NCBI RefSeq assembly: GCF_007990635.1
Contig: NZ_AP019846.1
Location: 1,116,001 to 1,180,000, forward strand
DNA from: Leptotrichia hongkongensis
GTDB taxonomy: Bacteria > Fusobacteriota > Fusobacteriia > Fusobacteriales > Leptotrichiaceae
Length of the DNA stretch: 64,000 bases
Reading direction: 5' to 3'
The first letter of the stretch is position 1. Every line of letters starts with the position of its first letter. The position numbers were made by a program, and so were the translations under genes. Positions 5,779 to 55,127 of this stretch are shown here, piece after piece. The notes beneath the pieces are model-generated. The model saw nothing but the letters and a program-made list of their open reading frames with translations, was not told the origin of the DNA and did not search any database.

Positions 5779-7294
5779 TTAATTTTGAAAAATATTTAAA
5801 ATACATTTTGAAATATTTTCAATAATATGTGAAGCATTAACAATATACTGATTTTTCACCAATTCATCTGCAATTTTACCATGTAAATATGCTCCAATTC
5901 CAGCAGACTTTATTAAATCGTATTTTTGTCCCGCAAGCGAACAGATAATTCCTGTTAAGCAATCTCCCATTCCACCATTTGCCATATGTGAATTTCCTGT
6001 ACTATTTGCAAAAAGCTCTTCTCCATTTGTAATAATGGTATTTTTACCTTTTAATAGCAAAATTATCTCGTATTTTTTTGCAAAATTTTTTGTTATTTCA
6101 AATCGATTTTTATTAATTTCATCTGTCGAAAATCCTGTCAGTCGTGAAAATTCAACCAAATGTGGTGTCAAAATGCTTCTATTTCTTATTTTTTCAAAAA
6201 GTTCCCTGTTTTCTGACAGCAAATTTAAAGCGTCTGCATCTAATATCAGTTTTATTGTATTCCCTTTATTGTTTTTCTTAATACTGATCAATTTTTCAAA
6301 AATTAAAAATGCTTGCTCACTTTTTCCAATTCCTGGCCCAATTGCAATTACATCGCTGTTTAAGATTTCATTTTCTAATTTTTCGAGATTTTCATTTATA
6401 TTATCAAAATTAATTGGAAAACTCATAGCTTCTGGCACAAATACATTTAATGAAAAGTTATTTTTATCAGTAATTACAGTAGTTAGTCCTGCTCCTGTTC
6501 TCACACACGATTTTGCAACTATATTTCCTGCACCATAAAATCCACTGCTTCCAGCAAAAATCAATACTTTTCCAAAATCTCCCTTATGGGAATCTTCATT
6601 TCTTTTTATACGAAAACTCTTTATTATGTCAGGTGTTAAATAATACTCTTTGACTAAATGATTAATACTAGTTTCGTTCAATCCAATATTTTCAATAATG
6701 ATTTTTCCTAAAAAATCTTTTATTTTTGAATTTAAAAATCCTTTTTTGTAAGTGACAAATGAAATTGTAATATCTGCTTTGACTGAAATTCCCATAATTT
6801 CACCAGTATCGCCATTAATTCCAGAGGGAATATCAATTGAATAAACTTTTTTATTATTGCTTGCTGTATTGATTTTTTGAATGATTTCCTGATAAATTCC
6901 TTTTATTTCTGAATTTAATCCTGTTCCAAAAATTCCTTCAATAACAACATTACATTCAAAAAACAATTTATCCAATTCTTCTATTTTATAAAATATCTTA
7001 ATTCCCATATTCTTACAAATTTCATAATTTATCATACAATCATTACTCATATTTTCATTGCTAATACAAAAATTTTAACATTTTTCCCTTTGAAAATAAC
7101 TGGCGTGCAATTGCATAACCATCTCCGCCATTATTGCCTTTACCACAAATAATAAGAAAATTATCTTCATTTTCATCAATATGTTTTACAAATGAAATTG
7201 CAGCATTTTCCATAAGCACGATACTTGGAATTTTCAAATTATTTATAGCAAAATTATCAATCTTTCTCGTAGTTTCATTTCCACCAAGCAACAT
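5779..7294 (-). pseudogene. nnr: Bifunctional NAD(P)H-hydrate repair enzyme (epimerase NnrE + dehydratase NnrD), split by two frameshifts
   Basis: Repairs hydrated NADH and NADPH: the N-terminal part epimerises NAD(P)HX, the C-terminal kinase-fold part dehydrates it with ADP. Fragment 7061-7294 has the epimerase start (IPSIVLMENAA, ICGKGNNGGDGYAIARQL). Fragment 5779-7050 continues the epimerase (SIDIPSGINGDTGE) and contains the whole dehydratase (FAGSSGFYGAGN, AIGPGIGKSE, NGGMGDCLTG). The gap reads through as KGKNVKIFVLAMKNMSNDC if one A is added in the run at about 7081-7085 and another at about 7052. Each shift lies in a short A/T run, so sequencing error is as likely as decay. The ATG at 7050 is an internal codon, not a real start. 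Confidence 0.88.
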
Positions 7295-7329
7295 TTTTCT
7301 CGCCTCTTTTTATTCTGTATTTATTTAAA

Positions 7330-7962
7330 TTACATTTCTGCAAAGCCAAAATGCATATAATCTCGTGTTCTAAAGTTCGCTCCCCATATCCAGCCTCTTT
7401 TTGTAAATGCTCTCACTACATCGCCATCAGGTTTTATAGAATATGGGTTACTTCCTGGTTGCCAGCTTTTTCCGACAATAGCCTTTCCGTTGCTGTTTAC
7501 CTGTGGATTTTCTTCAGGATTTAAGTCTATCGCCCGCCCTGTGCTGTGCAAACTTTTAAAACTTCCTCTCCATGAATAGCCAATTAAGTTTTTTATTGGA
7601 AATTTCTCTTTTCCTTTATGTATTTCATGAAAAATTTCCTTTACATCATTAGCAAGTACGTCCAAAATCTGAAATCTTTCTGTATCAGACACCTTTTTCC
7701 CGTCTTTTAATCTCCAGACAGGAACTTCCACCCAAACTAGTCTTGACTCAGCTTCTGCTCTTGTAGAAACATCTTTTATCCTATCTTTGACTTTTTGCTT
7801 TAATTCAAAATCTGGATCAGGATTTTCAATTTTCTGCTTTGGCTTGAAAGAATATAAGTTTTCGTAAATGCTGCTTGCTGTACTTAAAGTTGCTGTAGAA
7901 AGAATTAGTGCAATTACGGTTACAAGGCCTCTTCCATTTTTTTTTAAATTTATTTTATTCAT
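7330..7962 (-). CDS. Secreted M15-family peptidase (VanY/endolysin-like peptidoglycan peptidase)
   Basis: 210 residues. An N-terminal signal sequence (about residues 12-30, hydrophobic run VTVIALILSTATLS) precedes the domain. The zinc-peptidase core is visible as SLHSTGRAIDLNP (first His and Asp ligands) and RDYMHFGF (last His ligand), the pattern of M15C-type L-Ala-D-Glu or D,D-peptidases that trim peptidoglycan. The family acts in the periplasm. It is followed after 36 bp by the nnr gene on the same strand. Confidence 0.85.
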   Translation of the reverse strand: MNKINLKKNGRGLVTVIALILSTATLSTASSIYENLYSFKPKQKIENPDPDFELKQKVKDRIKDVSTRAEAESRLVWVEVPVWRLKDGKKVSDTERFQILDVLANDVKEIFHEIHKGKEKFPIKNLIGYSWRGSFKSLHSTGRAIDLNPEENPQVNSNGKAIVGKSWQPGSNPYSIKPDGDVVRAFTKRGWIWGANFRTRDYMHFGFAEM

Positions 7963-39366: not shown

Positions 39367-42300
39367 CTAGTAAATAGCTCTGAATCCTATTCCTGCTCTT
39401 ACATTCTTACCTTTAGTGTCATATCCTCCATTTACTGTTACTCCGAATCTTGTGTTGTCCACTCCGATATTCAGGTCAAACTTACCGTTTCCTTTTCTAT
39501 CGTCTTTTTCTCCTCTGATTCCGAACCAGTCTGCTGAAGTATATCTAACTCTTCCTTTGTTGTTTACATCTCCAACTTTTCCTAGTTCATTCTCATAAGC
39601 TGCAGTCAATCCTACTGATAAGTTAGTTCTTACTGCTAGTGGTTGAATAAATTTGAATTCCATTCCTACTTCTGGTTTAACAGAGAAGTAATCGTTTCCT
39701 TTAACTTCTAGTCTCATTTCCCCTCTGTCTTCCTTGATGCTGTTAAATCTTCCGTATTCCATCTTCAATGCTCCATAAGGACGGAAATGTGTTCTTTCGC
39801 TTAATCTTATGTCATATCCTAAGTCTGTTTTTAAAGCCGCTCCATAAGAATTGTAGTTAGATTTAGCTTCAAATATATCGTCTACAACAAGGTATCTACG
39901 TTTCATTTCGTTTATACCTGCAAACACGTCTCCACCAATTGTCCATTGTAATGATCCGTTATGATCGCTGCTAGGTGACATCTTTTTGAATACCCCTAAT
40001 TTAATCATAGTTTGGTTTTCTTTTGATTTACCAATATCTTTGAATTTGAATCTGTTATTTACAACCCCTGCATACCATCCGTCAGAGTTACCCATCTTAA
40101 TTTTTTCATCTTCGTGAACATAAGCCACTCCAGTAACATTACTTGTATAGTCAATAATTCCTGCAGTATCTGTGCTGTATTCATCTCTCATACCAAATAC
40201 TTTGATTTTGTTATTTTGTTTAGATGGATTTCTCCAGTCTCTTTGAAGGTGATTTAACTCTTTATCTAGTAAGTTTCCTGTAGCGTTAATTCTTTGTTGA
40301 AGGTTTCCGTATTGGTGTCCCATCATTTCATCAAAAGCTTGATATAACAACACTTCTTCGTTATTTCCTATTCCATTTAATTTTTGGAATAATTGATTTT
40401 CTCTTGAACCTAAGGCTTCCACACCATATCTTTGTTCCAGTCCGTCAGCAAAGTTAAATGTATCAGTGCTATTTACTGGTGACTCCTCTCTTCCTGTCCA
40501 TTCTGTGTACGGAATTTTAGCCATATATAGACTTGTTATTACTCCGTTTGAATCCAATGTTGGAGTCGCTATCCATCCTATTGAGCCCGAATACACATTC
40601 CACTTGATATTTGGATTGTTTAACATTGCTATTCTATATGGATTTATTATGTTAGGATCATTTACTAAAATGTATTTGCTAATTGTTGATTCTGCAGCTT
40701 CAGATCCAATAATTAAATCTGCTTCACTTGTCAAATTTTGCAATCCGTCTATTGATTTTGTATAGTTAACCCCTGAAGTATTTATATATAATCCAATGCT
40801 AGAAGCTGATACAGATATTGGATTTTTTGCCATTGTATTTACAACTACTGGTGTTTGAGGTACTCCATTCACAGTAATTGTAGCAGTTGGGACTCCCGCA
40901 GGTGCATCAATTTTTACTCCTCCTACTCCCTTTCCTGTTGCAGGCACTGTATATTCATAAATTGTATCTTCATCTTTTGTGCTTCCATTTACTTTTATAG
41001 TTCCATAGTTTTCCACTGTTCCACCTTTTAAGTAAACTCCCACACCGTTTTTCGCATTTATGTCGATAGTCGCACCTTTATTATTTATCAATTTTGAATT
41101 TTTTCCAAGATATACTCCAACTGTATTTGTGTAAGTCCCTGAACCTGTTGTAATTGAGTTATTGTTTATTGCAGTTGCTCCATTATCAGCATAGATACCT
41201 GTTGTGTTACTTGCGTTCAACACGATATTTCCGTCATTTGTCGCTGTACTTCCCGCACCACTTGCATACATACCGATACTATGTTTCCCGTTTACATTAA
41301 TTGTTCCTTTATTTATTATGTTACCTGTATCAGTTGTTTCATATCCTGCACCCATACCTATTGAGTACAGAGGAGCCAGATTACCGCTACTGTCAACAGC
41401 TGAAATATCTGATTCTCCTACTGTGATTGTTCCGTTGTTTGTTGCAGTTCCGCCTTTAATACTGTAAACTGCCACATTTCCCGAACCATTTGAAAAATCA
41501 ATATTTCCATTATTTGTTACTGTTCCAGCTGAATAAATACCGTAATTTTGTCCTCCTGTAGAAGTTATATTTGTAGAATTTGTTACTGTTCCTGATGTAT
41601 CACTTGAATAAACGTATACATTCTTATCTCCTAGTCCTACATTTGAAATTTTAGAATCTATTGCATTTCCTGTCCCAACATTTACAAATCCAAATGAATT
41701 GTTTCCTATATTAAATGCAGTTCCACTATTTGTAACAGTCTGTCCGCTTCCTACTGTGTAAACCCCAACTGCTTCATCTGTTCCTGTTGTTATTGTTCCA
41801 CCTGTCAAATTTACATTTCCACTTTGAGAATATATTCCAATTGCTGCATTTCCTATTTTCAAGTTACCTGAATTTTCTGCATTATATCCATAAATCCCAA
41901 TTGTATTATTTCCAGAATCTATTGTTCCAGTATTTTCAAGTGTTACAGTATTGTGCTCAGTGTAAAGTCCAACGTTAGGGCTAGTAATTGAAGCTGAATC
42001 TCCCAATGTTATTGTTCCACTGTTCTTGGCTGTATATCCTGGTGTTCCAGTTGCATATATTGCTGTATTTCTATCACCTGTCATAGTGATTTTTCCTGTA
42101 TTTTCCAGTATTACCCCTGGAGAAAGTGCCGCATCTGGTTTGTAAGAAATTGCAACCGAATCATTTCCTGCTGATTCTATTAATCCTGGATTGTTTATTG
42201 CCTGTGTTGTAGAACCTTCTGAATACAATCCTGTTGAATTAGAACCTATTGTAATTTTACCTGCATTTTCAATCAATGAATCCTCAGTTCCATAGATAGC

Positions 42301-45300
42301 TGTTGACTTATCACCAATTGTCATAACTCCTGTTGCTTTGTTGTATAGTTCTCCAAACTTAGCATACATTCCAGTAGAACCTGCACCACTTAAATTAATT
42401 GTTCCTTCATTTGATAATGTAACCTTATTTCTTGCATACAGACTCTTGTTATTTTCCTGAGCCATTGCAACCTGATTAGCCTGTGTTCCTGTAATAGTCT
42501 TAGTATTTGCATTCGTTATTGACGAATTTGAAATTTCAAGCTGATTGAATGCATCGTTGGCATCATCCAAGTTTACATCCTGATTAATTGTAAGGTTACT
42601 TAAGTATAGCATAAATGTCTTATAGTCAGTTCCATTTATATGTGCTCCTGTAGCTTTTGAGACAGCATCTCCTGTTGTATCAGACAAGTCCATTCCAACA
42701 TTTTGAGCAATAAATAGTCTTGACCCCTGCTTCATATCTAGCGTAAGATTCCCTAAAGTTGTATTTGTTCCATCTCCAAAATTATTTTTTGCCCATCCTT
42801 CAATTTGAGTTTTTCCAAAGTTACCGCCATTTCCTACATAATAAAAGGCATTTCCTCTGGTATTAGGAGTAGTTCCACCTTCAATAGTCGCATTCATCTT
42901 TCCATCTATAGCAACTTTTCCTGAACCATCTTCACCAAGATAGAATAGTAATGATTTTTGCCCTGTAGTTGCTGTTCCTGTTCCTTTTAATGTAATCTTA
43001 CCTTTATCAGCATCATAGTTTACTGCTCCCTCATATGCTTTTACAGTGTGGTCTCCAACTTCCAGTGTGGCATTTTCACCTGAATATACCCCAATTGATT
43101 CTGCTTCTTTTACATTAGCGTCCACATTTATACTGTTTGTACCGCTGCTTAAAAGTTTTGAATTTTTACCGGCAACAATACCATAAGAACCCTTTTTAAC
43201 TTTATTTCCTGAGCCATCTAAATATTCATACACTCCAGCAGAACCACCTGCACCATCATTTACTTTTACAGTTCCTGTGGATGTCGTTGTTACATCAGCA
43301 GTATTAGTTGAATTATCTCCAATAACTAATCCTGTAACTCCATTTCCTTCAGCTGTAGTAGTTCCACCATAATTTAATGTACCATTTGTAATCAACACAC
43401 CTGTTGAATTATCACCTTTTACACTAATATCACTTGTTGAAGCAAGTGTTCCCGATGGGTTACCAGTTCCTTTAGTCATATATACACCAACATTAGTTGC
43501 TGTTCCTGTTCCCTTCAACTCAATTTTTCCTGAGTTATTAAGCTGTCCACCACTAGTTGCCATTCCAATTCCATTGATAATCGTATTACCGCTTATTGTT
43601 TTACCTGCATTATTTACAACATCCGCATTTACCCCAACCATTCCTATTGATGAATCGCCATCTAAAGTGATTGTTCCATTATTTATTGCTTTAGGTGTTC
43701 CAGGTGCATCTGTTGATACTGACCCTTTACCTACTCTCATAGCTATATTTTGTCTTTTTTCAGTACTGCTGACATTAATTGTTCCAGCTGCATCATTTGT
43801 TATATCATCAGCAGCATTCGCAATCAAAACCATACCGGTATTACCTTTACCACCAGAAACATTTATTATTCCATTATTTTTTACTCTTCCTTGATATGCT
43901 CTTATTGAAGTAGCATTGCTATAATTAGAATCTTCTATAACTGCTATTCCTGATGACAATGAATTTACTGGATTATTCTTGGAATCAACTCCTGCATCCC
44001 CACTTACATTAAGTATTCCAGTATTTTCCATCGTACTATTAGGTGCTACACGTGAAGACCATTTCATACCATAGCTCGCTGTACCGCCTATATTCATCTT
44101 ATTTGCATTTGTAACTTCTACAAGCGAAGGTGAATCAGGAGCATAAATTTGAATTCCTATTGATTTTTCACCACCAAAATCAATTGTTCCATTATTTGTT
44201 AAAACATATTTACTATTAACTCTTCTATCGTCATTCTCAAAAGTTAATATCATACCAATTTTATATCCTGTATACCCAGCAGCAGTTCTATTTATATCAA
44301 CAGTTGTCCCACCTAGTAACGGTGCAAGAGTTAACGGTGCAGAAGCTCCTTTGGCTAATCCACCAATAGTTGCAAGCGTCGTTTCAGAAGCATCTGTTAT
44401 TGTTCCTGTATTAACTATTTCTCTTTTACTTCCATTTGGCCCGTAATATGTATCTGTTTGAACTTCAAATCCCACTGTCAAAGGTCCAACCAAATTAACT
44501 GTTGCTTTGTTATCAAGTTTAACATCTGTATTTGCTGGTGCATTATCCATTGTAGCTGCCCGAGAACCACCAACTAAAAAATTTTGTGCATTATATCCTC
44601 TTCCCGCATTTCTTTCAGATTGTTTTTGAGTTTCATTAAGTGGATTTTCTGAATTAACTGTTAAATTAGTTGTTAAATTGTAATTTGTTTCTGTATCAAA
44701 GTATGATTTTAATAAAACACTTCCTGTATTATTCCAAGAATGTCTTAATGACGGATAACCATCTCTAAGTCTTCCTTTAGTACCTGGAGCATTAGCTAAA
44801 ACCGAAAAAGCATTAAGATCAAAATCATAATTATAAGCTCCACCATTTACGCTACTTCCACAATCTGCCATATAATTACAGTAAGAACCTAGCTGTATAT
44901 TAAAAGTCGGTGGTGCTGGTAATTCTGGCAATTCTGGCAACCCAATAACTGGTTTTGGTGGTGTAAAGCTAATTGTTTCTGGTAATGTTGGTGTAACCAC
45001 ACTTTTTGCCGCTATTACAATTGGTGATTTATTTACATTTCTTGGACGTATTCCTGCACGTACTTCAAAAGGTATAATTGGCTCTTTTACCGATTTTACA
45101 CTGGCTATACCATATCCTTTTGCTGAACCTGAAGCAGAATTTGCTTTTCTATTTTTGTCTAATAGACCATAGTTACTACTGTCTGGTGATATTGCCCTTT
45201 CATAAATATTAGAACTTCTTTCAAATATACCTTCATAAGGGTATTTTTCTTTTTTATCTCCTCTTCCTTTGTAAGTTCCATTCCAATTATTATTAAAATA

Positions 45301-45636
45301 ATTAATTCCATATTGCCAGCTGCTCCAAGGAGATTTAACAACATGATCTCCTTGCTCCATTAATTGAATCAGTTCAAGATTCGTACTTTTTAATAATTTA
45401 CTATTCTCTCTTCGTGTTTCTTTAACCTTTTGATGTATACTTTTTATTGAAGATGAAATCTCCTGTTTTTGATTTTCTGTGCTTTTATCTGTAGTTTGCG
45501 AAAACAAATTACTTGTAATCGATACTACCCCTGTCATTAAAAATGTGACCAATGCAGAATCTGTGTATTTAAAATCTTTTGTTTTTTTTGCAAATGCACG
45601 TAAATCTTTTTGCAAATTTCTAAGATTATTTGTCAT
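39367..45636 (-). CDS. Giant type V autotransporter adhesin, copy 3
   Basis: About 2089 residues. Same layout as copies 1 and 2: MTNNLRNLQKDLRAFAKKTK, export segment ALVTFLMTGVVSITSN, LELIQLMEQGDHV, SPWSSWQYGINYFNNNW, Pro-rich linker (TPTLPETISFTPPKPVIG), repeat passenger (NNGTITVGESDIS, NSTGVLITNGTLNYGG), and a barrel ending AGIGFRAIY. The barrel is similar to but clearly diverged from the other two. The open frame extends to ATG 45684, which has a good GGAG, adding 16 residues; I use 45636 because MTNNLR is where both paralogues begin. Predicted surface adhesin. Confidence 0.93.
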   Translation of the reverse strand: MTNNLRNLQKDLRAFAKKTKDFKYTDSALVTFLMTGVVSITSNLFSQTTDKSTENQKQEISSSIKSIHQKVKETRRENSKLLKSTNLELIQLMEQGDHVVKSPWSSWQYGINYFNNNWNGTYKGRGDKKEKYPYEGIFERSSNIYERAISPDSSNYGLLDKNRKANSASGSAKGYGIASVKSVKEPIIPFEVRAGIRPRNVNKSPIVIAAKSVVTPTLPETISFTPPKPVIGLPELPELPAPPTFNIQLGSYCNYMADCGSSVNGGAYNYDFDLNAFSVLANAPGTKGRLRDGYPSLRHSWNNTGSVLLKSYFDTETNYNLTTNLTVNSENPLNETQKQSERNAGRGYNAQNFLVGGSRAATMDNAPANTDVKLDNKATVNLVGPLTVGFEVQTDTYYGPNGSKREIVNTGTITDASETTLATIGGLAKGASAPLTLAPLLGGTTVDINRTAAGYTGYKIGMILTFENDDRRVNSKYVLTNNGTIDFGGEKSIGIQIYAPDSPSLVEVTNANKMNIGGTASYGMKWSSRVAPNSTMENTGILNVSGDAGVDSKNNPVNSLSSGIAVIEDSNYSNATSIRAYQGRVKNNGIINVSGGKGNTGMVLIANAADDITNDAAGTINVSSTEKRQNIAMRVGKGSVSTDAPGTPKAINNGTITLDGDSSIGMVGVNADVVNNAGKTISGNTIINGIGMATSGGQLNNSGKIELKGTGTATNVGVYMTKGTGNPSGTLASTSDISVKGDNSTGVLITNGTLNYGGTTTAEGNGVTGLVIGDNSTNTADVTTTSTGTVKVNDGAGGSAGVYEYLDGSGNKVKKGSYGIVAGKNSKLLSSGTNSINVDANVKEAESIGVYSGENATLEVGDHTVKAYEGAVNYDADKGKITLKGTGTATTGQKSLLFYLGEDGSGKVAIDGKMNATIEGGTTPNTRGNAFYYVGNGGNFGKTQIEGWAKNNFGDGTNTTLGNLTLDMKQGSRLFIAQNVGMDLSDTTGDAVSKATGAHINGTDYKTFMLYLSNLTINQDVNLDDANDAFNQLEISNSSITNANTKTITGTQANQVAMAQENNKSLYARNKVTLSNEGTINLSGAGSTGMYAKFGELYNKATGVMTIGDKSTAIYGTEDSLIENAGKITIGSNSTGLYSEGSTTQAINNPGLIESAGNDSVAISYKPDAALSPGVILENTGKITMTGDRNTAIYATGTPGYTAKNSGTITLGDSASITSPNVGLYTEHNTVTLENTGTIDSGNNTIGIYGYNAENSGNLKIGNAAIGIYSQSGNVNLTGGTITTGTDEAVGVYTVGSGQTVTNSGTAFNIGNNSFGFVNVGTGNAIDSKISNVGLGDKNVYVYSSDTSGTVTNSTNITSTGGQNYGIYSAGTVTNNGNIDFSNGSGNVAVYSIKGGTATNNGTITVGESDISAVDSSGNLAPLYSIGMGAGYETTDTGNIINKGTINVNGKHSIGMYASGAGSTATNDGNIVLNASNTTGIYADNGATAINNNSITTGSGTYTNTVGVYLGKNSKLINNKGATIDINAKNGVGVYLKGGTVENYGTIKVNGSTKDEDTIYEYTVPATGKGVGGVKIDAPAGVPTATITVNGVPQTPVVVNTMAKNPISVSASSIGLYINTSGVNYTKSIDGLQNLTSEADLIIGSEAAESTISKYILVNDPNIINPYRIAMLNNPNIKWNVYSGSIGWIATPTLDSNGVITSLYMAKIPYTEWTGREESPVNSTDTFNFADGLEQRYGVEALGSRENQLFQKLNGIGNNEEVLLYQAFDEMMGHQYGNLQQRINATGNLLDKELNHLQRDWRNPSKQNNKIKVFGMRDEYSTDTAGIIDYTSNVTGVAYVHEDEKIKMGNSDGWYAGVVNNRFKFKDIGKSKENQTMIKLGVFKKMSPSSDHNGSLQWTIGGDVFAGINEMKRRYLVVDDIFEAKSNYNSYGAALKTDLGYDIRLSERTHFRPYGALKMEYGRFNSIKEDRGEMRLEVKGNDYFSVKPEVGMEFKFIQPLAVRTNLSVGLTAAYENELGKVGDVNNKGRVRYTSADWFGIRGEKDDRKGNGKFDLNIGVDNTRFGVTVNGGYDTKGKNVRAGIGFRAIY

Positions 45637-46030
45637 CTTTTTACCTTGTATGATAAATATATAATTAACTATATAAAATATCATACTCTCCTTTCTTTTT
45701 TATTAACTTTTTTTAATTAAATTTAAAATTATTACATTTACATACTTTTTATATTTAGTTCTTTAATATCATAGCTATTATTTGTAATAAATTCAAATTT
45801 TTTCACTTATTTTTATTTCCAATTTATTTTGATTTAATATATTTTAATATTAGAAAATAATAAGTTTAATATATTTTTTTACAATTTAACTCCTTAGTCA
45901 CTATTGCATCAAAATGTATTAATATGTATAATAAAGAAAAAGTCATTACTTTTTTTAATTTTGAAAAAGAATTATATTGTGCTATAATGTATCTTAGAAT
46001 GTAAAAAATATATAAAATATGGAGGTTTTT
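45637..46030. other. Divergent intergenic region between autotransporter 3 and the 46031 gene
   Basis: About 390 bases, highly AT-rich. Contains the possible 16-codon leader extension of autotransporter 3 (to 45684) and, at 45961-45988, the promoter of the rightward gene. No other coding potential seen. Confidence 0.4.
45961..45988 (+). promoter_or_regulatory. Promoter of the small membrane-protein gene
   Basis: TTGAAA (45961-45966), 16-base spacer, TATAAT (45983-45988), 42 bases before the ATG at 46031. Confidence 0.55.
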
Positions 46031-46588
46031 ATGGATTTAGAAAATAAAAAAAGTGACGAGGATTTCTTAGCCGAAGAAAAAAAATCTGAAAATGAAAAAA
46101 ATGAACGGCATTTTAATAACGTTGAGTCATTAAATAAAATAAGAAATGAAGTAATTGGTAATTCAAGCATTGAACAAAACAGATCAAATAATTTTGAATC
46201 AAATTCCAGCAATACAAATGATTCAATTACACTAACTTTGGATGCACTAACTACTAAAAATATGAAATTTATGGCAACAGTTATAAAAGTTTTCTCAGTA
46301 TTAGGAATTATTGTGGGAGTTTTCCAAATATTTGCATTCTTTATTGGAATCCTAACAATTATAATATCACTAAAATTCCTTAAATCAGCAAATGCTTTAG
46401 AAGAAGCTCTACTTATGAAAGATGAAAACAAATTAAAACAATACTTTAATGAGCAATCTAAAGCCTTGAAATTATACATTATCTTTATAATTGTCAGTAT
46501 TGTTATATGTATTGTTGTTTACGGATTTATCATCGCTGCATTTATATCGGGGGTTTTAAATAATTCTTCTTACTACAATTCATACTAA
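46031..46588 (+). CDS. Small membrane protein (DUF5362-like)
   Basis: 185 residues from ATG 46031; an in-frame ATG at 46019 lies within the GGAGG Shine-Dalgarno and is rejected. Residues 1-75 are charged and probably disordered and cytoplasmic. Two hydrophobic regions follow: FSVLGIIVGVFQIFAFFIGI continuing into LTIIISLKF, and LYIIFIIVSIVICIVVYGFI. Between them FLKSANALEEALLMKDENKL is a conserved-looking amphipathic segment as in DUF5362 proteins. Function unknown; own promoter and terminator. Confidence 0.75.
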   Translation: MDLENKKSDEDFLAEEKKSENEKNERHFNNVESLNKIRNEVIGNSSIEQNRSNNFESNSSNTNDSITLTLDALTTKNMKFMATVIKVFSVLGIIVGVFQIFAFFIGILTIIISLKFLKSANALEEALLMKDENKLKQYFNEQSKALKLYIIFIIVSIVICIVVYGFIIAAFISGVLNNSSYYNSY

Positions 46589-46827: not shown

Positions 46828-47742
46828 TTATACACTTGATATCACTACTATCTTTATTTTCCCAACATCTCTATAATTTTGATTAAATATAACTCCCCAT
46901 ATCAAATTAACATTTTTATCTTCTATAATATTTGAAATTCTTTCTGTTATCTGCCTAATATATTCTAATGAAACATCTTCTGCTGCAATAAAATTTATAA
47001 GAACTCTTTTAGCATCCTCTAATTTCCCTTCAAATAAATTATTTTTCTTTATCTGTTCAATTATCTTATCAACAGCATTGTCGCCTTTTGCTTCTCCAAC
47101 ACGAATAATGGTATCCTTTGAATCTTGAAGAACTGATTTTACATCCAAAAAGTCAATATTCATAAATCCAATTTCCGTCAGAATATTTACAATGCTCTCA
47201 ATACCTTCCTTTATAATAAAGTTAGCTTTTTTATAGGCTGTTTCAAGAGAATTTTTGCCAACATAATTATACAGCTTTTCATTCATAACAACAATCATGC
47301 TATCTGCAAGTTTTTCAATCTTCTTAATACCTGTATTTGCAATCTTTAAATTCTCGAATCCTTCTAGATAAAATGGACGTGCGATAATACTGACAGTAAA
47401 AATTCTCAATTTTTTTGCAACTTCAAGAATAACAGGCATTATTCCACTTCCAGTTGCCCCTCCAACTCCTGCAGTCAAAAATAGAATATCTGTTCCCTTA
47501 AGCAATTCCCGAAATTGATTTTCACATTGAAGTGCCACTCTCTCGGCCTGCTCTCTGCTGCATTCCTTAACCCCGGTATCTAAAAAAATCTTTTTTTCAG
47601 CATGACTTCGCTCATAATTCTTACTATCTGTATCAATTGTTATATATTCAACCTTTCTTACTCCTGAAGCTATCATAAAATTAACAAAATTTATCCCCAT
47701 CCCACCAATTCCAATAACTTTTACACTCATTTTATCCTTCAT
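46828..47742 (-). CDS. Divergent FtsZ/tubulin-family paralogue
   Basis: 304 residues. N-terminal GTPase domain: VKVIGIGGMGINFVNFMI (T1), YITIDTDSK, tubulin signature AGVGGATGSG (canonical FtsZ has GGGTG), SIIARPFYLEGFENL. The catalytic T7 loop NIDFLDVKSVL keeps both Asp residues. The T3 region with the usual LGAGANP motif is missing (LDTGVKECSREQAER), and there is no disordered tail or C-terminal peptide for FtsA/ZipA binding. It is therefore probably not the division FtsZ but a specialised filament former. Start may be ATG 47730, which has AAGGA just upstream. Isolated on the minus strand. Confidence 0.85.
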   Translation of the reverse strand: MKDKMSVKVIGIGGMGINFVNFMIASGVRKVEYITIDTDSKNYERSHAEKKIFLDTGVKECSREQAERVALQCENQFRELLKGTDILFLTAGVGGATGSGIMPVILEVAKKLRIFTVSIIARPFYLEGFENLKIANTGIKKIEKLADSMIVVMNEKLYNYVGKNSLETAYKKANFIIKEGIESIVNILTEIGFMNIDFLDVKSVLQDSKDTIIRVGEAKGDNAVDKIIEQIKKNNLFEGKLEDAKRVLINFIAAEDVSLEYIRQITERISNIIEDKNVNLIWGVIFNQNYRDVGKIKIVVISSV

Positions 47743-47892
47743 ACTAATCCCACTATTGCAAATACAAAGTATTGCAAAATCTCCCTTCTATTGAAAATAT
47801 TTAATTTTGAAATTATTTTTTGTTTATAGATGTATTTTAGCAGATTAAAAGAGGTATTTCAAGAATGAAATTTAATAAAATATTTTTTCATG

Positions 47893-48285
47893 TTAATATA
47901 ATTTATTTAAAAATTCAGAAAAATTATCAGCTACAAATTCTTTTTCTTGTGTTTCATGTAAATATAGGATAACTTTTTTATCATCATCTAAACATAAAAC
48001 ATTTCCTGATGGATCCAAACCAAAAGGAATTAAATTCATACGAAATAACTCTTCAAATTGATAAATATTTTCTTCATCCTCTCTATTGTATGATATTAAA
48101 TCTTTAAAAATTTTCTCCTTCGATACTTCAGTATCAAAAATATTTTTATTAGGATAACCAGCATTGTTATTTTCTATACATCCTTTCAAATCATTTGGTA
48201 ATAAAACACTGTATTTTTTTTCTATTTCTTGTATTTCCTCTTTATTTTCTAAGGGAATTACATATTTCCAATTTATATTATTCAT
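47893..48285 (-). CDS. SUKH (SMI1/KNR4) family immunity protein
   Basis: 130 residues from ATG 48285 (AAGGAG 9 bases upstream; the open frame to 48366 overlaps the nuclease gene and is not needed). SUKH fold: EIQEIEKKYSVLLPNDLKGC, NNNAGYPNK, LIPFGLDPSGNVLCLDDD and VADNFSEFLNKLY at the end. SUKH proteins classically neutralise HNH/EndoVII nuclease toxins, which fits the gene directly upstream (13 bp gap). Last gene of the dynamin-HerA operon. Confidence 0.88.
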   Translation of the reverse strand: MNNINWKYVIPLENKEEIQEIEKKYSVLLPNDLKGCIENNNAGYPNKNIFDTEVSKEKIFKDLISYNREDEENIYQFEELFRMNLIPFGLDPSGNVLCLDDDKKVILYLHETQEKEFVADNFSEFLNKLY

Positions 48286-48298
48286 ATTCAATCTCTCC

Positions 48299-48937
48299 TT
48301 ATCTATTTTCTTGTCCTCCACCCCATATAGCTTTACCACCTGTATGTGCAGTCTTATTATGTACATCTGTTTTTACTAGTTGCATTTCTCCAATTTTTTC
48401 ATTATGATGCCATGTATATCCTCTTGGTGTTTCCCCATTTTCTATCATTTCAAGTTGTTGTTCATTAAAGTTTTTTCTTAATATTTCATCATTTTGAACT
48501 GTTTCTTTTAATTTTGAATTACACTCTTTAAATTGATTCTTATCTGTTGCATTGTAATTTTCTTTGGACAACTTAGTATCAAATACTGATTCAAACTCTG
48601 GGAAAACACCTTCAACTTTAAGTCCACCTACTTCTATACTTTTTTTGTTATAGGCTACTAGTGTAGTGTCATGTTTTATTCCTTCAAGCCATGAATTTAA
48701 AGTTTTTAACTGAATTGTTCCATTTTTATCTTTAATAGCATTTTCTATTAAAGAATCAGACATACCATTTTCTTTCAGAATATTTTTCTCTTCATTAGAT
48801 AATCCTATTTCCTTAACTATAGGTTCATCCAATTCACTCGTATTCATATTTTTATTTTCTACAGATTTTGCAATTTCTGCCAGAGAAGACTTTTCAATCC
48901 CTGCTTCTGACAATTTTAATACCATAGATTCTATCAT
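48299..48937 (-). CDS. WHH-type HNH/EndoVII nuclease (toxin or effector)
   Basis: 212 residues. The C-terminal about 100 residues form the WHH variant of the HNH/EndoVII fold: VFPEFESVFDTKLSKENY, QFKECNSKLKE, then GYTWHHNEKIGEMQLVKTD and HNKTAHTGGKAIWGGG with the catalytic His pair. The first 100 residues are helical and charged with no signal peptide, LXG or PAAR module, so there is no visible secretion tag. Its ATG overlaps the (frame-corrected) stop of the ATPase gene as ATGA, and the SUKH immunity gene follows at once. This suggests an effector acting inside the cell as part of the operon. Confidence 0.88.
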   Translation of the reverse strand: MIESMVLKLSEAGIEKSSLAEIAKSVENKNMNTSELDEPIVKEIGLSNEEKNILKENGMSDSLIENAIKDKNGTIQLKTLNSWLEGIKHDTTLVAYNKKSIEVGGLKVEGVFPEFESVFDTKLSKENYNATDKNQFKECNSKLKETVQNDEILRKNFNEQQLEMIENGETPRGYTWHHNEKIGEMQLVKTDVHNKTAHTGGKAIWGGGQENR

Positions 48938-49133: not shown

Positions 49134-52100
49134 TTAATTTTTTAAATTATTCTTATCAACAATTAAATTAGTAACCATTTTAGATAATTTTTCAAAATTA
49201 TTGTTTTTCCATATTTTTAATTTTTCAGTTTTTCTGTATTCATCTAAAAGTTCTAAAACCTCTATTTTCTGTATTGTTGATAATTTAGACTTAGTTAAAG
49301 TGTTGTCTATATACTCAATATTAGGCGTAATTTCCTGATTAACTTTAGTTTTTAATAATAATTTCAATAATTCTTGTTTTAATTTACATTCATCAATCTT
49401 TTCTGTATATTCTCGAGTATAATTATACAGTTCTTCTTTTCCTTCAAATTTATTAACTTTACACAATACAGGCTCTATCCAATCATTTTGATAAACTACA
49501 GCAACTCCTTTAGGTAATTTTGCAATTTCATCTAACTGTTCATCTTTTAAGGCTGCAGCTTTACCAGCCAATCTTCTATCAACCTCATCAGGTAATCTCA
49601 TAATAATCTTTGTATTTGTATTTCTGATTGCTGAAACATCAACTGCATTAGGAGATTGATCAGCTATAATAAATCCTTCTCCATAAGTTCGCATCTCCGC
49701 TATTGCATTTGATAGCATTTCTACTGATTTTCCTGAAACATTGGAACTTTCTGAATTTTGTTCAGTTGAAACTCTTTTTAGTATATTGTGAGCTTCTTCT
49801 AAAACAGTAACATGTTTTAGTTTTGAATTCATTTCTGTTGCTTCTGACATTCTGTATTCATTCAATCTCATCACAAGTATTCCCATAATAAGTGATTTTG
49901 TTTCTAAAGAACCAATTCGGCTTAAATCAATTATAACATTTTCATCAAATAATATTTTATTATCTATCTCATCCGAAGCAAAAATTTGACCATTTAATCC
50001 ATTAGTTAAAGATTTAATTCTAGTTACTAATGAACCGATGTAATTCCCCTTTAATTCCTCAGAATATGCTGAATTTTCAATAACAGTCCACAATTCTTTT
50101 TCTAAATCAGCAAACGTCGGGAATAACTCATCCGAAATTCTATTTACAGATTCCACTAAATCCCATCCACAATCTTCATAAGCACTTAAAACTGCATCTT
50201 TTAATACAGCAGGCATTGCCGCATACATTGGCCAGCACACATTAAATATTTCTATTAATCTATCCACATGCTCTAATACATGAACAGATTTTGGAAATTT
50301 AAATGGATTAATTCTTAATAATTCACTAAAATTAGGATTAGTTCCCAATACAGTTACGTTATTTTTATTCCCAAAAACATTTTTGTATTCCCCTTTAGCT
50401 GGCTCAATTATCATAAATTTTATACCAACTATATCTAATTGATCCAATATTTCATATATTGTATTACTTTTACCAGATCCTGTTGAACCTGTGATGAAAG
50501 TATGCATTGCAAGGCTTTCTCTATTTAATCTAACCTTAGTCTTTGTTTCTGTACCCATATTGTAAATATTTCCTAAATTTATACTTCCAAAAACTTTTTC
50601 ATTATTTGATGTCATAACTTCTTTAGCAAAATCTACATGTTCAATAACAGGAAATCCAGGAACAGATTTTCTCGGGAAACCAATATGTAAAGCTAATTCA
50701 TTACCACTAACTGTTACAGTTGGAGTTACTGGTATTGCGATTTGGGAAATATTGTTATATAAAAATAATGGATGATAAAAGTTTTTTATATATTTTCTTA
50801 TTTCATTAACTTTTTCCTTATCACTCCATGAATTTACAGCAGAAACTTCTACTCCTGTATTTGTTCCACTCATTAATGCCTTATAAGTAGAAGCTGCAAT
50901 TTCTGAAGTATATGAATTTTCAGAAACAAAATATGCCGCACATTCCCATAATCCTAAACTTTCAAATTCTTTTATTCTTTCAAATTGAATATCTAATTTT
51001 TCTAATATGTTGGAAATACTTTTATTTTCAATATTCATTGTTATATTTTGAGAATTTCCTCGTTGCATTCCTTTTGTTTCAGTATTACTTTGATTCGTTC
51101 CATAAGTATCGCCCATACTGGTTCCAGAAGTATAAGAATGATTTTCTGAAGTAGATTCTGTTGTAGTTGTTCCTTTAGTATGCGTCTTTCCAAATCCAGC
51201 ACCTAAACTATTTATTCCCATAGAAAGTACACCAGCTCCTATCAAGCTAGCTCCTCCTGTCATAGGAGCTAACAATAAACCTGCTGTACTTACTGCCATT
51301 GAAGTTACGCCTGAAATTTTACCAATAGCATCTTTTTCAGTATAACTTTCTGATTTTGATGTACTCTGCGAAGTTGTCTTTCCGTAAGTCTCAGATGAAT
51401 TTGTAGTATAACTTTTACTTTCTGATTTTCCTGTTGTAAAAGCATTAGCAACATTTATTGACTCGTTTACAGAATAATTTACTTGAGATTTTGAAAATGG
51501 TATTAATTGGGTATAGATATTTTCATAGTTCTTTCTTATTTCTGCAAGTTGTCCTTGTTCTACTCCATTTGCAATTATTATTCCTGTATATTTTTGATTT
51601 TGCATTGATAATGCCAATTTTTCTAGTCCTTGCACAAATGAAACGTTATTTTTTTCATCTATTTTATCATTTGCAACACACGAAACAGCAGAAATGTTAT
51701 TGATTTTAATTTTATCTAAAACATTCTGCATTTTATTATTTGTGTAATTTTCTGTCTTTATACCAGGAAATTGCCCATTTAACGCATTTTTTAAAGTATC
51801 TCTTAAAGAATTTATAGTGAAATTTGAATTTAATGATTTAACTCCCATATAAAAATCAGTTTTTTCTCCATCACTATCTATTATAATGAATATAGCACAT
51901 TTCATAGAAATCAATGAATTATACACACTTGCAAACTTATAAGTTGAATATTCGTCTTTTTCATATATCATTTCAGTAATTTTAAAAAATCTTATAGTAT
52001 CAAATAAATCTTCATTTTCGGAAGAAAACGGAACTACTTCTAAATCTTCCAATTTTGTCAGATAATTTTTTAACAATACATCATCTACAATTTTAATGGC

Positions 52101-52181
52101 ATTATTAAAATTCTCCTGAATAGATTTTTGTTCAGGTATATAATTATTTTTAGCTATTGTTTGCAATTTATCGTCATACAT
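49134..52181 (-). CDS. HerA/FtsK-like ATPase (DUF87-type) with hydrophobic insert
   Basis: 1015 residues here, about 1080 with the displaced tail. Residues 1-240 have no recognised domain. Residues 250-283 and 336-380 are Ser/Thr-rich and flank a Gly-rich hydrophobic segment (291-331, SMAVSTAGLLLAPMTGGASL) that could insert into a membrane. The motor domain has Walker A TGSTGSGKSNT (about 564-574), IEPAKGEY, Walker B VTVLEEAHN (about 791-799) and the sensor region GFIIADQSPNAVD, the pattern of HerA/VirB4-type hexameric DNA or protein translocases. It is placed between the dynamin genes and a nuclease gene, so it may be the motor of a defence complex. Confidence 0.88.
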   Translation of the reverse strand: MYDDKLQTIAKNNYIPEQKSIQENFNNAIKIVDDVLLKNYLTKLEDLEVVPFSSENEDLFDTIRFFKITEMIYEKDEYSTYKFASVYNSLISMKCAIFIIIDSDGEKTDFYMGVKSLNSNFTINSLRDTLKNALNGQFPGIKTENYTNNKMQNVLDKIKINNISAVSCVANDKIDEKNNVSFVQGLEKLALSMQNQKYTGIIIANGVEQGQLAEIRKNYENIYTQLIPFSKSQVNYSVNESINVANAFTTGKSESKSYTTNSSETYGKTTSQSTSKSESYTEKDAIGKISGVTSMAVSTAGLLLAPMTGGASLIGAGVLSMGINSLGAGFGKTHTKGTTTTESTSENHSYTSGTSMGDTYGTNQSNTETKGMQRGNSQNITMNIENKSISNILEKLDIQFERIKEFESLGLWECAAYFVSENSYTSEIAASTYKALMSGTNTGVEVSAVNSWSDKEKVNEIRKYIKNFYHPLFLYNNISQIAIPVTPTVTVSGNELALHIGFPRKSVPGFPVIEHVDFAKEVMTSNNEKVFGSINLGNIYNMGTETKTKVRLNRESLAMHTFITGSTGSGKSNTIYEILDQLDIVGIKFMIIEPAKGEYKNVFGNKNNVTVLGTNPNFSELLRINPFKFPKSVHVLEHVDRLIEIFNVCWPMYAAMPAVLKDAVLSAYEDCGWDLVESVNRISDELFPTFADLEKELWTVIENSAYSEELKGNYIGSLVTRIKSLTNGLNGQIFASDEIDNKILFDENVIIDLSRIGSLETKSLIMGILVMRLNEYRMSEATEMNSKLKHVTVLEEAHNILKRVSTEQNSESSNVSGKSVEMLSNAIAEMRTYGEGFIIADQSPNAVDVSAIRNTNTKIIMRLPDEVDRRLAGKAAALKDEQLDEIAKLPKGVAVVYQNDWIEPVLCKVNKFEGKEELYNYTREYTEKIDECKLKQELLKLLLKTKVNQEITPNIEYIDNTLTKSKLSTIQKIEVLELLDEYRKTEKLKIWKNNNFEKLSKMVTNLIVDKNNLKN

Positions 52182-52193
52182 TTTTTACACTCC

Positions 52194-52745
52194 TTAATTA
52201 TTATCATTAAATAGAATTATTCCACCTGCTACCAATACAGCACCACCAACAGCACCCACAACAAATGATTTTGCCACAAGTCCGCTTAATAATAATACTC
52301 CTCCAACTCCAGCTACGACCATACCTGTCTGTTTATAATTTATTGAATTATTTCTATTATTAGTTGTTTTCTGGAATCTTACGGAAGATTTATTAGTAGT
52401 ATTTCCATTATTTGCTTTACTTCTATCTGAATTTGTCGTTTTCCCAGCAAATAAATGCTTTCTAACTTTTCTTAACAAATTCATTCTTTCTCTTGAAAAA
52501 TTGAACATCAAGTCTTTCAGAAGTTGTTTATAGTATTCTTCTGTCCAATTTGCTACATTCAAATCTAATTTCTGATTATCCTGTTCTTTATATAGAGCAT
52601 TTCCTATATTTTCTTCTGCATATTTAACCATTTCTTCACCTTCATTTGATTTAGGCGATACTGTAAAACTTGTATAAATCTGTGTTCTTACTCCATTAAT
52701 ATTTCTTTCACTAACTGCCTTTAAAAATTCTGAACTCAACATCAT
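52194..52745 (-). CDS. Small protein with C-terminal glycine-rich membrane hairpin
   Basis: 183 residues from ATG 52745, 8 bases after AAGGAG (a GTG at 52754 is too close to it). Residues 1-100 are soluble and possibly a conserved domain (FLKAVSERNINGVRTQIYTS, EEMVKYAEENIGN). An Asn/Thr/Ser-rich linker (105-140) follows, then two glycine-zipper-like membrane segments, GMVVAGVGGVLLLSGLVA and VGAVGGAVLVAGGIILF. Gly-rich hairpins resemble those of membrane-inserting effectors or assembly factors. Lies 12 bp before the ATPase gene and 18 bp after the large dynamin. I do not recognise a family. Confidence 0.75.
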   Translation of the reverse strand: MMLSSEFLKAVSERNINGVRTQIYTSFTVSPKSNEGEEMVKYAEENIGNALYKEQDNQKLDLNVANWTEEYYKQLLKDLMFNFSRERMNLLRKVRKHLFAGKTTNSDRSKANNGNTTNKSSVRFQKTTNNRNNSINYKQTGMVVAGVGGVLLLSGLVAKSFVVGAVGGAVLVAGGIILFNDNN

Positions 52746-52763
52746 TTTTATCACTCCTTCTTA

Positions 52764-55127
52764 TTATATTTCTAAAATTCCATTTACTCTATTTTGAATA
52801 TTTTCTAACCAAGCTAACTTACTATTATTTTCATTAATTATATTTTCCAAATTATTATTTTCGCTTGCAAATCCTTTTAATTCCTCTAATTTTTCATTTA
52901 ATTTACTATCTAATTTATCTGCTTCTTTTCTAAAGTTTCTTTTAATCTTTGTAATTGTATCATCTATATATTTTTCTGTTTCTTCTGAAATTTCAAAAAA
53001 ATGATTAATTGGCGAACTGAAATATCTTTTAGCAAATTCCTCGCCTTTAACATATCTTATTTCTTCATAAATTTCTTCTTCAACATAACTAGGCTCCCAA
53101 AATTTAATCCAACCAAAAAAACCGCTCTTTTTCTGATTTTTTACTGTCTTAGTTCTTCCAGTAGCAACACTCTTTTCTTCAGCAATACTTTCAAATATTA
53201 AATTTGCATTCATAGAATCTATATCTCCTGAAATGAAATCCAATGGATCTATTTCAATATTTGCAATTTTAATATCTTCTGATAAAGATTTTAACTTATC
53301 TTTATAGCTTTTAACTAACTTATCATACATATTTTTTACTTTTTGTTCTACCGTTTCTTCTAATTTTATTTGTACTTTATTGTCTAAATTTTTAGTTTTT
53401 GTTTCAAATTCATTAGTTTTTGACTCAATTTGATAATCTCTAAATTCTTGTCCTTGTTGTCCATATATTATTTTTTGAATTTCTTGTTGAACATTTTCAA
53501 AAATAGGTCTGATACTTTCTTTTATTTCATTACCATTTAAACTTTCTACCTCTTCCAAGAATTTTTTACCACCTTCAGCATCTTTTAATTTATTCTGTAT
53601 CTCATCAATAGCTTTAGTTATTTCAGCTTGTTTTTCTCTATTTGATAAGATTTCTTGTTTTACATTTTCAAATGACTTTGCACTTTCCAGTCTTGAATGA
53701 AATGTTTCATAAATATTTTTTATTTTAGCTGTTTTAGAATATTTTTCAACATAAAGTTTTATTGCTTCTTCAATAGAAACTATCCCAGAATGTATTAATG
53801 CTTCCCGCTTCATTCCTTCTGATTTTTCTTCTTTATCTTCACTAGAACTCAATTCTTTGGCTTCTTCTATTTGTTTATTAAGTTTGTTTCTCATACTAGG
53901 AGTTGCTGGTGCATATTTTTCTAAATGAAATTCTATATTTTTATTCATTTTTTTTACTTTATTAATTACATCTCTTACATTATCATCCAATTCATCTAGT
54001 TCATCTTCAGAATATCCTACAACTCTATGATTTTTTAAAATTGTTCTTATATCTAATGCCGTTAAAGCCGAAGCTGGATAAACATTAGGATTTTTTATCC
54101 CCTTATCTTCAAGATATTTCTTTACTTTTTCTATAGAACTTTCAACATCATCTTCTCCTTTTCTAAAGTTATCCAATTTATTTACAACAAATATATATCT
54201 ATCTTTAGATTGTTTACCACCAACTTTCATACTGTCAGCAACCATTTCTAATAAATTGCTGTCATCGTTTACTGCCAATTGAGTTGCATTCAAGACATAT
54301 AATACCAATGTTTTTGATGTTTCATTTAAATTTCTCATTGTCATTCTCTGATGTTCAGCATCTCTTGAATTATTTGGACCTGGAGTATCTACTAATACTA
54401 ATGAAGTATCATCCGAAGATACAAAAGGTATATCGCCATTTATTTCTATTCGTGAAACACTTGAATCTGAATTAAATCTTTCCATATCCTCTAGTTTTAA
54501 ATTTGGATTGCTCTCAATACGAATATTATTTTTATCAAAAATACTAGCTTCAAATATATCTTTATCTTTATCTGTAATTTCAGTTACTATTGCAGTACAC
54601 GCTTCCTGTTTTGCAGGCATTAATTTTTTTCTTAATAAGGCATTTATTAAAGTTGATTTTCCAGCACTCATTGTTGCTATTACATTTACTGGGAATTTTT
54701 CACTTAATGCCATTTCAAAAGAATGCTTCAAAGATTTGTCATTTAATTCTTGAAAAGGTCCATTTTGAATATCATAAAATATTTCTTCAATTGCTTTTTC
54801 TTTATCGCCTAATTCCTGTACGGCTTCATGTATTACATGCATTCTCACATTTTCTGGAAACACTTTTCCATTCTCTGTTTCTATTCCTTCTCTTCTAGCA
54901 TTTTCAACAACAAACTCTACATCTTCATAATCTAAACTAGTTCCTTTAAATGTAATTTCAAATTCCTCTTCCAACGTATTACATTCTTCAAACAAAATTC
55001 TCGGAAAATCCTCAATCCATTCTTGTAATCTTTTATCAGTTAAATCTAATACTTTTAATTCTTTCCCCTCCAACATAACTTCTGTTTCTACTTTATATGG
55101 GTTATATTTGATGTATACCTTTTTCAT
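52764..55127 (-). CDS. Bacterial dynamin-like GTPase (full length)
   Basis: 787 residues. GTPase motifs: P-loop ATMSAGKSTLINALL at 151-165, where Ala replaces the first Gly of the usual G-x4-GKS; G2 Thr in EACTAIVTE; G3 LVDTPGPNNS at 245-254; G4 VVNKLD at 314-319. The rest is long alpha-helical and coiled-coil (about 400-780), with a predicted membrane-contact region near FFGWIKFWEPSYVEEE. Residues 1-110 are an extra N-terminal domain. Dynamin-like proteins remodel or fuse membranes. Third of three dynamin genes in a tight operon with the small membrane protein and HerA-type ATPase. Confidence 0.9.
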   Translation of the reverse strand: MKKVYIKYNPYKVETEVMLEGKELKVLDLTDKRLQEWIEDFPRILFEECNTLEEEFEITFKGTSLDYEDVEFVVENARREGIETENGKVFPENVRMHVIHEAVQELGDKEKAIEEIFYDIQNGPFQELNDKSLKHSFEMALSEKFPVNVIATMSAGKSTLINALLRKKLMPAKQEACTAIVTEITDKDKDIFEASIFDKNNIRIESNPNLKLEDMERFNSDSSVSRIEINGDIPFVSSDDTSLVLVDTPGPNNSRDAEHQRMTMRNLNETSKTLVLYVLNATQLAVNDDSNLLEMVADSMKVGGKQSKDRYIFVVNKLDNFRKGEDDVESSIEKVKKYLEDKGIKNPNVYPASALTALDIRTILKNHRVVGYSEDELDELDDNVRDVINKVKKMNKNIEFHLEKYAPATPSMRNKLNKQIEEAKELSSSEDKEEKSEGMKREALIHSGIVSIEEAIKLYVEKYSKTAKIKNIYETFHSRLESAKSFENVKQEILSNREKQAEITKAIDEIQNKLKDAEGGKKFLEEVESLNGNEIKESIRPIFENVQQEIQKIIYGQQGQEFRDYQIESKTNEFETKTKNLDNKVQIKLEETVEQKVKNMYDKLVKSYKDKLKSLSEDIKIANIEIDPLDFISGDIDSMNANLIFESIAEEKSVATGRTKTVKNQKKSGFFGWIKFWEPSYVEEEIYEEIRYVKGEEFAKRYFSSPINHFFEISEETEKYIDDTITKIKRNFRKEADKLDSKLNEKLEELKGFASENNNLENIINENNSKLAWLENIQNRVNGILEI

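Follow-up and report, generated by a model that had tools for sequence, protein, structure and literature searches.

A tailless FtsZ paralogue of Leptotrichia with a conserved T7 loop and a predicted loss of its own gamma-phosphate contacts

Leptotrichia carries a non-canonical FtsZ paralogue, here termed B, whose sequence indicates that most of the residues with which a subunit handles its own gamma-phosphate and catalytic water have been lost, while those that it lends to the neighbouring subunit stay. We tentatively propose that B is a minor subunit of the cell's own FtsZ filaments, whose dynamics it alters, a reading to which we give somewhat less than an even chance. As a rule, FtsZ works as a lone, self-sufficient GTPase. 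The control of the ends and turnover of its filaments is an open question. The setting is a lineage that yielded no FtsA and in which SepF is the sole anchor seen.

The genome that carries B is that of a Leptotrichia, 2.28 Mb in size and 99.7% complete. Coordinates below refer to the window, that is, the whole stretch of 64,000 nucleotides that was analysed.

46828..47742, minus strand: FtsZ paralogue B, an open reading frame of 304 amino acids, possibly 300 amino acids from Met5

Met5 (47730) is preceded by AAGGA and may be the true start. B is a member of the Tubulin/FtsZ superfamily, in its FtsZ branch. The Pfam domains Tubulin (PF00091; residues 7-161, 99 bits, E 4e-28, cut-off 33) and FtsZ_C (PF12327; residues 212-300, 46 bits, E 6.5e-12, cut-off 27) were both recognized, and an AlphaFold2 model made from 47 sequences has the FtsZ fold with a mean pLDDT of 91.6, matching S. 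aureus FtsZ with a TM score of 0.92. Judged against the FtsZ equivalog TIGR00065, B falls outside in its score (221 bits, under the cut-off of 295.2; the canonical copy scores 383.5), T3, T4, and tail, and inside in its T7. The genome encodes four FtsZ homologues, A (canonical), B, C (325 aa), and D (282 aa). B had been described in the earlier note as a second-type FtsZ, which is right in that it is a non-canonical paralogue beside a canonical ftsZ, but it is one of four such homologues rather than one of two.

All 13 genomes of the genus, as well as one sister genus, have an orthologue of B (54-82% identity); none was found in the remaining 19 family genomes searched. A scan of genome contigs with B as the query returned a single relative, an orthologue in Leptotrichia sp. 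oral taxon 879. B is under purifying selection, with a median dN/dS (Nei-Gojobori) of about 0.13, the corresponding values being 0.11 (A), 0.20 (C), and 0.43 (D); D is the least constrained, with a value that is based on low-divergence pairs. The Pfam domains, the modelled FtsZ fold, and the orthologues under purifying selection in 14 genomes lead us to count B as a real gene.

A canonical ftsZ had been sought elsewhere in the genome, as its absence would have made B the division protein. It was found in the dcw cluster, immediately after ftsQ, with all motifs and the C-terminal peptide DFVLPPFFEE; therefore, B is not the division protein. The identity between B and the genus's own canonical FtsZ is about 37%. 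None of 20 Leptotrichiaceae genomes yielded an FtsA, the best match reaching 74 bits against a cut-off of 176, whereas 12/13 other Fusobacteriota passed this cut-off; in these, FtsA immediately precedes FtsZ wherever the two positions were compared. For this reason, the earlier remark that B cannot dock FtsA/ZipA does not apply in this family. SepF was present in all genomes searched, as a single copy in the 20 Leptotrichiaceae, and is the sole membrane anchor detected there. As a separate observation, two full-length ftsZ genes lie in tandem in another genome (G085; L067:4366-6821).

The nucleotide-site and catalytic motifs of B are as follows (E. coli FtsZ numbering; counts refer to the 14 orthologues).

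47689..47712, minus strand: T1 loop GIGGMGIN; G20, G22, and N24 kept, G23 replaced by Ile
47626..47634, minus strand: T2 loop DTD; Asn43 replaced by Asp in 14/14
47551..47583, minus strand: T3 position LDTGVKECSRE; shortened, without the gamma-phosphate-binding G-A-G
47443..47463, minus strand: T4 loop GGATGSG; G107 replaced by A/S in 14/14
47359..47376, minus strand: T5 PFYLEG; ribose-contacting Glu retained in 14/14
47281..47283, minus strand: T6 Asn154 (N165 of E. coli, a guanine contact); retained in 14/14
47137..47169, minus strand: T7 catalytic loop GFMNIDFLDVK; N, D, and D retained in 14/14

FtsZ contacts the guanine and the ribose through N165, F182, N186, and E138. In all 14 B proteins, G20, G22, N24, G105, G106, G109, E138, N165, N186, N207, D209, and D212 are retained and the N-x-D-x-x-D signature of T7 is present; F182 is Tyr, N43 is Asp, R142 is lost, and G69-A70-G71 of T3 is missing. 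T4 reads GG[AS]TGSG, in one case GGAAGSG, where the FtsZ reference has GGGTGTG. The C-terminal linker and conserved peptide are absent. Our residue table thus agrees with what had been noted for B, namely a missing T3, GGATGSG at T4, a retained T7, and an end right after the fold without a C-terminal tail, since the protein stops at the last strand, KIKIVVISSV. The lost T3 and the altered T4 also fit the earlier prediction that B would handle GTP unusually. Among 50 distinct FtsZs from viral contigs, used as a control, 49 had a Gly-rich T3 and a GxGGGTGTG T4, and in the single exception both loops lie beyond the readable part; the loss of T3 is therefore unusual.

The part that these residues play is known from S. 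aureus FtsZ filaments, where residue numbers are those of E. coli plus one. A71 and A73 of T3 and G108 of T4 bind the gamma-phosphate mimic, the catalytic water is held by G72 of T3 together with D210 and D213 of the next subunit's T7, the Mg2+ waters are organised by N44 and D46, and T3 contacts H8 of the next subunit (PMC8936486).

If B co-assembles with FtsZ, its T7 loop would trigger hydrolysis of the GTP bound by the FtsZ subunit under it, and its own pocket would bind a guanine nucleotide without reading the gamma-phosphate. The interface above B would consequently be weak or nucleotide-insensitive, and B, being tailless, would reach the membrane through FtsZ alone, which is presumably tethered by SepF. 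Filaments would then turn over more, or the Z ring would acquire break points. The intact T7, the guanine and ribose contacts kept in B, the FtsZ fold, the purifying selection, the presence of SepF, and the tailed FtsZ in the same cell support this proposal, for which the Agrobacterium and chloroplast FtsZs described below offer precedents. Against it, B stands alone and away from the division cluster, no conserved partner operon being seen across 14 genomes, and the genes upstream of it vary from genome to genome. Moreover, T7 and H8 of B are kept no better than the rest of the protein, such that the sequence does not favour co-assembly over self-assembly: T7 is 45% identical to that of the genus FtsZ, ranking 65th of 293 windows, and the top loops and the region of T7 plus the start of H8 each show 40% identity.

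Compatible with any mechanism is the idea that B descends from an ancient tailless second FtsZ of the Fusobacteriota and keeps its older role, an origin that is a serious candidate though we would not yet back it. B groups with the tailless second FtsZs of Fusobacteriaceae in the best tree (support 87/94), and Ile23 (Val in one), Ser102, Ser110, and Leu217 are common to both. However, B and the tailless groups are long branches, a tree without these groups puts B in the Leptotrichia FtsZ lineage (support 95), and the AU test did not reject that placement (p 0.375). The second FtsZs of other Fusobacteriota (F1 and F2; 314-332 aa) are tailless like B and have Ile23 and Ser110 in common with it, but they keep T3 and T4, and F1 has a fixed position next to gpmB-like and rodA/ftsW-like genes. 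A tailless second FtsZ with intact T1-T7 occupies a fixed site beside genes of these two kinds in eight genomes of one genus (L058-L062, L065, L066, and L075), and a different tailless FtsZ group occurs in two other genera (L063, L064, and L070).

Self-assembly, in which B would form a homopolymer of its own and thus a cytoskeletal filament separate from the Z ring, seems to us rather unlikely. Both faces of B have diverged from FtsZ together, as if B subunits had co-evolved with each other, and the complete fold and strong purifying selection would suit such a polymer. T3, which both contacts the next H8 and binds the gamma-phosphate (PMC8936486), is nevertheless missing, making the usual GTP-driven self-assembly improbable, and B has neither a membrane tether nor an operon partner. 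The earlier suggestion of a clade-specific cytoskeletal element survives in its first half, as B is restricted to the genus (13/13) plus one sister genus, but no conserved operon links B to cell shape.

Less probable again, and in our view unlikely, is that B forms no filaments and acts as a one-sided capper or sequestrant of FtsZ ends or monomers, a negative or nucleating regulator. The combination of T7 catalytic residues retained in 14/14 proteins with a vanished gamma-phosphate site is what such a factor would show, the sister paralogues C and D are further along the same path, and FtsZ is known to be regulated by capping through MciZ, SulA, and MinC (PMC11938149). These three offer a possible analogy for B in the regulation of filament ends, but they bind the T7 face, whereas a T7-donating paralogue would bind the nucleotide face. 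T1, most of T4, T5, and the guanine contacts are still present in B, which exceeds the need of a pure cap.

Two further readings can be set aside. Motifs have been lost in B, yet a decaying, functionless duplicate is highly improbable and is ruled out by the selection signal (dN/dS about 0.13) and by conservation, the gene being intact in 14/14 genomes and its promoter-like and leader sequence being kept. A phage or plasmid tubulin of the PhuZ or TubZ type has a negligible chance of being correct: the PhuZ profile matched weakly (27 bits, versus 221 for the FtsZ profile), B has an FtsZ_C domain, its nearest solved structures are bacterial FtsZs, the phage and plasmid matches are ordinary FtsZs with <36% identity, and B is fixed in the chromosome across the genus. 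No phage protein nearer to B than FtsZ turned up. With its FtsZ C-terminal domain, B is not close to phage tubulin. A possible further tubulin homologue in another genome (G003) proved to be a false match, a type IV secretion-type ATPase by sequence.

The sister paralogues lie elsewhere in the same genome.

G000:C1, about 176.9-179.5 kb (L050:4857-5834 and 6671-7519), outside the window: paralogues C and D

C and D adjoin each other, and in five genomes a gene for a toxin of the ToxN/AbiQ type (type III toxin-antitoxin) lies between them (L049:2947-3504 and equivalents); L050 had no Rfam match. A tree placed C and D in the Leptotrichiaceae FtsZ lineage with support of 100/97. G20, G106, G107, N165, N186, and T3 are missing from C, and essentially all of T1, T3, T4, T5, and T6 from D; N207 and D212 are kept in 10/10 proteins of both, and D209 in 10/10 (C) and 9/10 (D). 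Compared with the FtsZ of the genus itself, C is 90% identical in T7 but 36% in the nucleotide-face loops, and D 85% and 19%, respectively. This contrast was equalled by only 4 (C) and 5 (D) of 303 circular label shifts and is not seen in B (40% vs 40%). The model of D has the full FtsZ fold (pLDDT 90.4; TM about 0.9 to solved FtsZs). These features suggest that C and D are what natural one-faced FtsZs would look like.

In an FtsZ filament, T7 is exposed at the growing end (PMC8936486), so that a protein with a good T7 face alone, such as C or D, could dock only at the minus end, on the nucleotide face that is exposed there. Binding at the end opposite to the growing one is expected to nucleate or stabilise FtsZ filaments (PMC11938149). 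An extension that we hold to be doubtful is that B, C, and D form a graded tailless set in which the T7 activator is kept and the nucleotide face is lost stepwise, with C and D nucleating, anchoring, or capping minus ends in the manner of gamma-tubulin. The steps would be the loss of the gamma-phosphate sensor in B, of Asn165 and the T4 glycines in addition in C, and of nearly everything in D. A 235-aa FtsZ relative in another genome (L056:7121-7828; G009) is further degenerate, with no Pfam match and a T7-like MVTLDLADLKTV.

B has the fold, FtsZ_C, and the T1, T5, T6, and T7 chemistry in common with the canonical FtsZ of the genus, but differs from it in lacking T3, the linker, and the C-terminal peptide, in its altered T4 and T2, and in its location outside the dcw cluster. 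Tailless FtsZ paralogues are already known: Agrobacterium tumefaciens, of another phylum, has, in addition to a single full-length FtsZ, extra copies that lack the linker and the C-terminal peptide and are thus tailless like B (PMC13170164). In the chloroplast ring, FtsZ1 tunes the stability of FtsZ2 filaments (PMC8142252), a tuning between two FtsZs like that proposed for B, but both are active FtsZs and evolved independently. FtsZl1 and FtsZl2 are, like B, FtsZ-superfamily proteins found beside a normal FtsZ; FtsZl1, which occurs together with vWA genes, lacks a C-terminal domain recognisable as that of FtsZ, and FtsZl2 has an additional C-terminal region of ~300 aa (PMC2875224). B shows none of these traits, having no vWA neighbours, an FtsZ_C domain, and no extension.

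FtsZ paralogues in which T7 is kept but the gamma-phosphate loop or the whole nucleotide site has gone were not described in the limited literature searched, which also yielded no paper on Leptotrichia FtsZ or on degenerate FtsZ paralogues. One-faced FtsZ mutants were reportedly used by Du et al. in 2018 to work out filament polarity, and Leptotrichia appears to hold their natural counterparts. If confirmed, this would mean that bacteria, like eukaryotes with gamma-tubulin, can turn a tubulin-family duplicate into a filament regulator.

Two features adjoin B in the window.

46019..46588, plus strand: convergent gene for a DUF5362 small membrane protein, adjoining B in 10/14 genomes
47834..47862, minus strand: predicted sigma-70 promoter TTGAAA-17-TAAAAT with an extended -10, a consensus match also found before several orthologues

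A 5′ stretch, GAAGGGAGATTT(T)GCAA...TTTGCAA (window 47745-47800), is conserved ahead of B in 10 genomes; within the genome, its core motif is found at a single place. A structured RNA leader was considered and rejected, as the folding did not surpass that of shuffled sequences and there was no Rfam match. Further upstream, a colicin-type DNase/WHH nuclease toxin domain, overlapped by a SUKH immunity gene, lies at 47893-48937, and adjacent genes for a HerA/Mad8-like ATPase and a dynamin/AriA-like GTPase, possibly an anti-phage system, at 49134-55127. The HerA/dynamin-like pair stands beside B in the source genome alone, with a HerA relative also in L038; a functional tie of B to this island was discarded because the neighbourhood is specific to the source genome. 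On the other side of B, three giant open reading frames of 2105-2387 aa follow one another at 24356-45684, of which that at 39367-45684 is autotransporter adhesin-like by sequence.
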